A stretch of 36,363 nucleotides of DNA, from positions 1-36,363 of the forward strand of contig JAFGPB010000048.1 of assembly GCA_016926205.1 (NCBI GenBank), read 5' to 3'. A program made the translations under genes and the position numbers. The stretch is from Bacteroidales bacterium (lineage in GTDB: Bacteria > Bacteroidota > Bacteroidia > Bacteroidales > UBA10428). The notes beneath the pieces were generated by a model, which saw only the letters and a list, made by a program, of their open reading frames with translations, did no database searches and had not been told where the DNA came from. Shown here in pieces: positions 9,597 through 12,139 of the stretch (position 1 is its first letter; every line of letters begins with the position of its first letter).

Positions 9597-11339
9597 ATGA
9601 AGAAAATGAGGCAAAACTACCTAATCTCAACAATTATCGCAGCTCTTGTCATGAGCGGTTGCGCCGGGCTGTCAAAAATGAGAGACAGTGCCAGCACGGT
9701 CGGATATGAAGTAAATCCCAATCCTCTTGAGATGCATGGTGATCAGACATTGCATGACAATGCTGTAGCCGTTGCAATCAACACAAGATTTCCTGAAAAA
9801 TATTTTAACAAGAAGGCTGTTGTGGTTGCAACACCTGTGCTCAAGTATGAGGGTGGAGAAAAGACGTACCCCTCCACCACGCTGCAGGGTGAAAAAGTGG
9901 ATGGCAACAACAGGGTAATTCCTTATGCCGGCGGCAATTATTCATATACAGGCACCATCCCTTATGAAGATGCCATGATGCAGTCGCAGCTTGTTGTCAG
10001 GATGTCTGCAAGCATTAATGACAAAGAACCTCTGGTCTGGGAATCCCCGAAGATTGCTGACGGTGTGTTAGCAACTCCTGCACTGGTTCAGGTTGTACCA
10101 AAAACCGTCATTATGCCCGACAATTTTCAACGAATTATACCGGAGGCTTATACGGCTGATATTCATTATGTGATCAATCAGTCTAACGTGAGATCATCCG
10201 AATTGAGGGCTGATGACATCGTGAAGCTTGAAGAAGACATGGTTGCAGCCGAAGTTGCTGAGAACATTGAAATAAAAGGCGCTGAGATCTCTGCATATGC
10301 TTCTCCTGATGGTCCGCTTGACCTGAATACCAGACTTTCGGAAAATCGTGAAAGTACTGCCCAGCGGTATCTCGAAAGAGCATTGAGGGATAACAAAATC
10401 ACGGAAGCTGAAGCAGCTAATTTCCTGAATATGATGAGTACACCAGAAGACTGGAACGGTTTCAGGGAATTGATGGAAGCTTCGGATATTCAGGATAAAG
10501 ACCTGATTTTGCGTGTGTTAAGCATGTATTCAGATCCCGTGGTCAGAGAGCGGGAAATTAAGAACATTTCACAGGCTTATGAAGAAATCGCAGAGAAAAT
10601 TCTGCCTCAGTTGCGCCGTTCCGTGATGACGATAAACGTGGATGTAATTGGCAAATCCGACAGTGAGATCATGAATCTGGTTCGCGTTGATCCCGATTCA
10701 CTCAATGTTGAAGAAATCCTCTTTGCAGCTACGCTGACCGATAACCTGAATGAAAAAGCAGCTATTTACGAAGCAGCAGCAAGAATTTACCCCGAATGCA
10801 TCAGGGCACACAACAACCTGGGTAATATATATTTACAGCTCGACAGACTGGATGAAGCAAAAGCTTCACTTGAAGCAGCTCAGAAGATCGATGATACTGA
10901 TGCTGTAAAAGCCAACCTTGGAGCTGTAGCTCTTGCAGAAAGAGATATTTCAACTGCTGAACAACTGCTGACTTCAGCCATGAGCGCAGGCAGTGAAGTA
11001 AGTTATAACCTGGGCATCATCAAGATCATACAGGGTGATTACGCGGCAGCTGTAAACTATTTTGGCAATGAACCCTCATTCAATGCAGCATTGGCTCAGA
11101 TGTTAAGTGGGAATAACGACCGCGCAATGACCACACTGAACCAGCTGGGAGATGTCAAAGATGCATCGGTATATTATCTTAAGGCTATTGCTGCTGCAAG
11201 AAGCGGAAACAATTCGGCAGTTTTCAGCAACCTGCGCAGTGCCATAAGTCTGGACAGTTCACTTAAGGAACATGCACAGAAAGATGCTGAATTTCTCGGG
11301 ATTGCAAGTGATGCAACGTTCATGCAGATCATTCAGTAA
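9597..11339 (+). CDS. Outer-membrane-type lipoprotein with OmpA-like and TPR regions
   Basis: The 580-aa protein starts with a lipoprotein signal: basic MKKMRQ, a hydrophobic stretch, and MSGC with the lipidated Cys at residue 22. Residues ~60-210 look like beta-rich repeats of an unassigned type. Residues ~225-270 contain ISAYASPDGPLDLNTRLSENR, resembling the peptidoglycan-binding helix region of OmpA-family domains, here with a large insertion before the final strand (MTINVDVIGKSD). Residues ~375-470 carry tetratricopeptide repeats such as IRAHNNLGNIYLQLDRLDEAKASLEAA. It is probably a periplasmic-facing envelope protein that scaffolds other proteins. It appears monocistronic, with its own terminator. 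I recognise this architecture from Bacteroidales but know no assigned name. Confidence 0.78.
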   Translation: MKKMRQNYLISTIIAALVMSGCAGLSKMRDSASTVGYEVNPNPLEMHGDQTLHDNAVAVAINTRFPEKYFNKKAVVVATPVLKYEGGEKTYPSTTLQGEKVDGNNRVIPYAGGNYSYTGTIPYEDAMMQSQLVVRMSASINDKEPLVWESPKIADGVLATPALVQVVPKTVIMPDNFQRIIPEAYTADIHYVINQSNVRSSELRADDIVKLEEDMVAAEVAENIEIKGAEISAYASPDGPLDLNTRLSENRESTAQRYLERALRDNKITEAEAANFLNMMSTPEDWNGFRELMEASDIQDKDLILRVLSMYSDPVVREREIKNISQAYEEIAEKILPQLRRSVMTINVDVIGKSDSEIMNLVRVDPDSLNVEEILFAATLTDNLNEKAAIYEAAARIYPECIRAHNNLGNIYLQLDRLDEAKASLEAAQKIDDTDAVKANLGAVALAERDISTAEQLLTSAMSAGSEVSYNLGIIKIIQGDYAAAVNYFGNEPSFNAALAQMLSGNNDRAMTTLNQLGDVKDASVYYLKAIAAARSGNNSAVFSNLRSAISLDSSLKEHAQKDAEFLGIASDATFMQIIQ

Positions 11340-11363: not shown

Positions 11364-11392
11364 AAGGCGGTTCCCTAAGGACCGCCTTTTTT
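11364..11392 (+). terminator. Rho-independent terminator of the lipoprotein gene
   Basis: GGCGG pairs with CCGCC and TCC with GGA around a CTAA loop (11366-11386), with one bulged T, and six T residues follow (11387-11392). It lies 26 nt after the lipoprotein stop. The intron relic begins directly after the T-run. Confidence 0.88.
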
Positions 11393-11393
11393 G

Positions 11394-11560
11394 GTGCGGT
11401 GTGGTGTGGTTTGCCCGGCATAGGGAATAACCCTGGGGTGTAAGTCCCGAATGCACCCTGACAGTTGGAAATATCAGCCAGCAGCAAGGGTGTCCATCGT
11501 GAGGGGGAATCTGTAGGAAGCCGGCGGCAAAATCCTGACCTGACGGACAGGAACTTTAGA
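11394..11560 (+). mobile_element. Truncated group IIC intron (5' part of domain I)
   Basis: The segment reads like the 5' end of a bacterial group IIC intron. Shared landmarks, recalled from the Oceanobacillus iheyensis intron, occur in order: TGCCCGGCATAGGG, then GTAAGTCCCGAA, GCAAGGGTGTCC, GGGAATCTGTAGGAAGC, GGCGGCAAA, and GGACAGGAACTT near 11545. The 5' boundary is unclear among several GTG-rich positions (11394-11409). The rest of domain I, domains II-VI and the reverse transcriptase are absent; the trmH-family gene ends only 40 nt further on. IIC introns are known to insert just downstream of terminator hairpins, which is exactly the position here. It is therefore probably an immobile relic, although a retained structured RNA is possible. 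Confidence 0.8.
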
Positions 11561-11599
11561 ATGCCCGTGATCGTTCATTTCGGTGTGACCTTAAAAACC

Positions 11600-12139
11600 T
11601 TATGATTGCTGTAACTGAAAGAATCTGAAAAACTCCCACAAAACAATTCCCGCGCTTACGGCAATATTAATCGAATGTTTGGTACCCAGCTGGGGTATTT
11701 CTATGCTTTCATCACACAGGTCGGCAACCTTCTGCTCAACTCCCCTGACCTCATGACCGAAAACCAGGGCGTATTTCATGTCATTACGGATATTCAATTG
11801 ACAAAGCGGGGTGCTGCTATCTGTCTGTTCCACTGCAATAATGTTGTATTTCCTGTTTTTTAGTGACTGAACAGCTTCTGTGGTATGTCCAAAATACTGC
11901 CAGTAAACCGATTCAGTTGCTCCCAGTGCGGTTTTGTTGATTTCCCGGTGAGGAGGTGTGGCGGTAATTCCGCACAGGTATATTCCTTCTACCAGAAAGG
12001 CATCGGAGGTACGAAATATGGATCCGATGTTGTTCAGGCTTCTTACATTATCCAGAACAACCACAACCGGATATTTTCTGGTCGTTTTGAATTCTTCAAC
12101 GGTCAGCCTGTTTAATTCTGCATTCATTAATTTCTTCAT
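11600..12139 (-). CDS. TrmH/SpoU-family RNA 2'-O-methyltransferase
   Basis: The 179-aa protein has the three motifs of SPOUT methyltransferases, which use a trefoil-knot fold to bind AdoMet. Motif 1 is VVVLDNVRSLNNIGSIFRTSDAF (residues ~26-48), including the catalytic-type Arg in the NNIGSIFR segment. Motif 2 is YALVFGHEVRGV, and motif 3 is IEIPQLGTKHSINIAVSAGIVLWE. The short form without an N-terminal extension fits tRNA- or rRNA-modifying members, but the target nucleotide cannot be assigned. The gene is convergent with the lipoprotein gene, with the intron relic between them, and divergent from sucC. A second ATG four codons in (MNAEL) could be the start. Confidence 0.88.
   Translation of the reverse strand: MKKLMNAELNRLTVEEFKTTRKYPVVVVLDNVRSLNNIGSIFRTSDAFLVEGIYLCGITATPPHREINKTALGATESVYWQYFGHTTEAVQSLKNRKYNIIAVEQTDSSTPLCQLNIRNDMKYALVFGHEVRGVEQKVADLCDESIEIPQLGTKHSINIAVSAGIVLWEFFRFFQLQQS

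Follow-up and report, generated by a model that had tools for sequence, protein, structure and literature searches.

The segment at positions 11394–11555 of the window (the whole 36,363-nt stretch of Bacteroidales DNA that was analysed, contig JAFGPB010000048.1) is almost certainly the relic of a group IIC (bacterial class C) intron, which was inserted and then lost its 3' portion by deletion. The relic lies directly behind the intrinsic terminator of a TPR lipoprotein gene, and consists of the 5' part of domain I, preceded by a short array of intron 5'-end pentamers. The features of the locus are as follows (window coordinates):

9597–11339, + strand: TPR lipoprotein gene, the upstream conserved flank
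11366–11392, + strand: intrinsic terminator of the TPR lipoprotein gene, with the stem at 11366–11386 (GGCGGTTC/GGACCGCC) and a T-run (T6) at 11387–11392; read directly in the sequence
11394–11413, + strand: tandem array of intron 5'-end pentamers, GTGCG-GTGTG-GTGTG-GTTTG, from the sequence
11409–11555, + strand: ∼147 nt from the 5' side of group IIC intron domain I; the intact element measures ∼1.9 kb
11493–11575, + strand: match to Rfam RF02001 (group-II-D1D4-3), 47.5 bits, cut-off 32
11556–11599, + strand: deletion junction and remaining host spacer, with the 3' breakpoint placed within these bounds only
11600–12139, − strand: SpoU-type RNA methylase gene, the downstream conserved flank

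Identity and extent of the fragment

A preliminary description of this DNA noted a resemblance to domain I of group IIC introns and proposed a covariance search with the Rfam group II D1D4 families. The resemblance is borne out both by the RF02001 model, whose match (E = 1.1e-6 over the window; 1.2e-8 over 401 bases) is the sole Rfam match above cut-off in the window, and by homology to intact IIC introns. Plasmid records contain group IIC introns with ltrA annotations, and in BLAST alignments these match the window from 11405 to about 11556. The closest intron that we have seen belongs to another Bacteroidales genome (G152; loci L052/L082), and is 84.6% identical over 143 nt (window 11413–11555), or 83% identical over 148 aligned columns. 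Its 5' end, GTGCGCCCGGCAT, is also located behind a terminator T-run.

All intron homology stops at 11553–11556. Past approximately 11555 the window reads CAGGAACTTTAGAATGCCC, where intact introns have CAGAAACYGCATATAAGGC or a similar sequence, and we therefore place the end of the intron part at about 11555. The RF02001 match extends to 11575 since the alignment spans the model from one end to the other and omits its 90-nt middle, and the last ∼20 nt of the match (11556–11575) are not homologous to intact introns. The intron part is thus 11394–11555; the start behind the T-run agrees with the preliminary description, but the end, given there as 11590, does not. To place the original 3' exon junction, positions 11556–11599 were aligned with the closest relative's spacer and with an intact intron's 3' portion, and neither alignment convincingly beats shuffles.

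Everything downstream of the fragment had been described as gone, and this is the case in both the window and the genome. Searches were made genome-wide by family and by DNA query. Domain V (RF00029) has no match above cut-off in the window or in the 2.24-Mb assembly, which is 88% complete, and from the same assembly the group II reverse transcriptase (TIGR04416) is absent; tblastn of a reverse transcriptase against the window gave no match. RF02001 itself is found nowhere in the whole assembly besides 11493–11575, so that the complete copies elsewhere in the genome, for which a search had been suggested, were not found by any of these three families. A donor copy could lie in the unassembled part of the genome. 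One domain-V-like match (G000:C101) scored 17.6 bits against a cut-off of 40 and was rejected; it falls within an apparent protein-coding stretch.

A functional group II intron has domains V and VI and a class C reverse transcriptase/maturase, and the fragment has neither. Judged from its sequence, the missing catalytic domain should in practice rule out splicing or mobility, and the remaining 5' ∼150 nt are predicted to be unable to splice, move or make protein, and to be decaying. Of the 24 pairs in the local domain I hairpins, 19 are kept; the nearest intron has all 24, and the others have roughly 18–23. Since some intact introns also have five broken pairs, the pair count does not set the relic apart from distant intact introns and alone is no proof of decay. 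However, domain I has lost its distal strands and therefore cannot fold.

The insertion site and its empty counterparts

The terminator at 11366–11392 is the 5' exon, or target, of the group IIC intron. The fragment begins directly behind the terminator stem and T-run, as had been observed previously, and the distance from the stem to GTGCG is 7 nt, which is the usual spacing and the same as in intact introns. A match of the suhB/mmgR sRNA family over the terminator scores 17.8 bits, below the cut-off of 41, and was rejected.

The same site is empty in relatives. Eighteen other genomes with the TPR-gene/SpoU-gene order carry a terminator at the corresponding position and nothing recognisable as intron sequence (one of them, G014, has ∼1.2 kb of other sequence between the two genes), and among the other 22 genomes in the family none has the fragment at this site. 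The empty sites include that of the closest relative (G005), whose TPR and SpoU proteins are 89% and 80% identical to those in the window, and in which the gap to the aligned end of the SpoU gene is 127 nt rather than the 260 nt seen here. The insertion is therefore lineage-specific and younger than the split from this relative. This gives an upper bound for the deletion, which had been called recent, and the dating goes no closer than that.

The pentamer array at the 5' end

The fragment carries the GTGYG 5' end in the form of GTGCG at 11394. Intact introns have one GTGYG unit (or GTTCG, GTACG) directly after the T-run, and the compared junctions (marked by a slash) are of the form ...CCTCTTTTT/GTGCGCCCGGCAT (L082), ...GGGGCTTTTTTTGTT/GTGTGCCGTGCAT (L083) and ...GGCCTCTTTTAGTA/GTGTGCCCGGCAG (L005). 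In the window the junction is CCGCCTTTTTTG/GTGCG GTGTG GTGTG GTTTG CCCGGCAT, with the T-run followed by four GTGYG-like units before the intron's CCCGGCAT, and the unit that adjoins the intron body is the divergent GTTTG. Tandem Repeats Finder reports this array, which the preliminary description had missed, with a period of 5 and 3.8 copies. The additional units appear to have arisen by tandem expansion of the 5' end of the intron itself, possibly by slippage after insertion.

Origin and fate of the relic

We propose that, once this lineage had separated from its closest sampled relative, a mobile group IIC intron landed behind the TPR lipoprotein gene's rho-independent terminator, and that a later deletion took the rest of domain I, domains II–VI and the reverse transcriptase gene. 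The homology, the truncation, the position and the empty sites are direct observations, and from them the order of the two events may be reconstructed as follows. Target-primed reverse transcription copies a group II intron starting at its 3' end, so that when insertion is broken off it is the 5' end that is missing. Here the 5' end is at its target position and there is no 3' end, and we therefore infer that the deletion followed insertion. Alternatively, the copy might have been mobilised in trans when it was already truncated. Miniature IIC elements that lack the middle of the intron do exist in a relative (G103), but these still have the domain V and 3' end that reverse splicing and priming require, and the window copy has neither. 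No second copy was found either, and in DNA searches of about 450 genomes the same 3' break was seen at no further locus. Arrival in truncated form is, in our estimation, very improbable.

A second question is whether the fragment is retained for an RNA function, be it as a small RNA, as an element of a 3' UTR or as one piece of an intron assembled in trans. The core motifs GGGTGTAAGTCCC, GCAAGGGTGTCCATCGTGAG and GGAATCTG are intact, which would suit such a role, and the preliminary description had suggested that the fragment may be kept for another reason. The other evidence runs against this suggestion. The fragment is absent at this site from all sampled members of the genus and family, so there is no orthologue that could show conservation. 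It folds with an unremarkable energy (z = +1.2 for 11394–11590; −1.2 for 11409–11555), although the same stretch in a related intron is no different, and this measure is uninformative for intact and broken copies alike. The five broken local pairs, compared with none in the nearest intron, count against a function, though some intact introns share that number; the loss of the distal strands of domain I leaves the retained strands without partners; and no domain V is found elsewhere in the genome for trans-assembly. We consider a functional RNA very improbable, and put no greater faith in exaptation, in which the truncated 5' piece and the expanded GTGYG array would together form a stable RNA or a 3' UTR element used by the host.

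Genomic fossils like this inserted and 3'-deleted relic are common in bacteria, and we regard it as ordinary. It resembles group IIC introns and RF02001 in the 5' part of domain I, the position behind an intrinsic terminator and the usual spacing, but differs in lacking the rest of domain I, domains II–VI and the reverse transcriptase, and in having four 5'-end pentamers rather than one. IIC introns insert at terminators, and the majority of bacterial copies are truncated or inactivated (PMC4424553). Isolated group II intron fragments without a full-length counterpart have been catalogued for Enterobacteriales (PMC3522654), and intron decay via loss of the 3' terminus has been described (PMC4496777). 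Like those fragments, the window relic is isolated, inactive, missing its 3' terminus and without a full-length copy in the genome; it differs only in its host, an uncultured Bacteroidales, and not in kind. It adds to the documented record of group II intron decay a case in which relatives have clean empty sites, and shows that this lineage was once reached by IIC introns, which it then lost; no general view is changed. The small additions made here are the revised ends of the intron part, the array of pentamers and the evidence that the site is empty in relatives.

Introns and relics elsewhere in the order

A member of the same family (G016) has a complete IIC intron of ∼1.9 kb behind the terminator of an rplI-like gene, with a 471-codon reverse transcriptase frame and domain V. 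RF02001 matches occur in 68 of the 295 genomes of the order, and several of these are short. Relics that retain the 5' end and are truncated at the 3' side are found behind terminators in G036 (L005/L101), G266 (L088), G093 (L091) and G115 (L090).

Contig C165 of G103 contains three ∼335-nt miniature group IIC elements (L119, 64082–64419; L120, 105912–106161; L121, 108405–108738). Each is located behind a terminator, and each has a 5' domain I part and a domain V-like end without the middle and the reverse transcriptase. Two of the three are 93% alike over their full length and have different flanks, as if they had moved in trans after deletion, in a MITE-like manner. At L096 (G138:C277:1358-1487), domain I (GACGAAC) is fused straight to a domain V-like CCGCCGTATACG, with the deletion at a short shared GAAC-like word. 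The domain I breakpoints of L096, L088, L091 and the window cluster at roughly intron nt 130–150, possibly reflecting a detection bias of the Rfam model.
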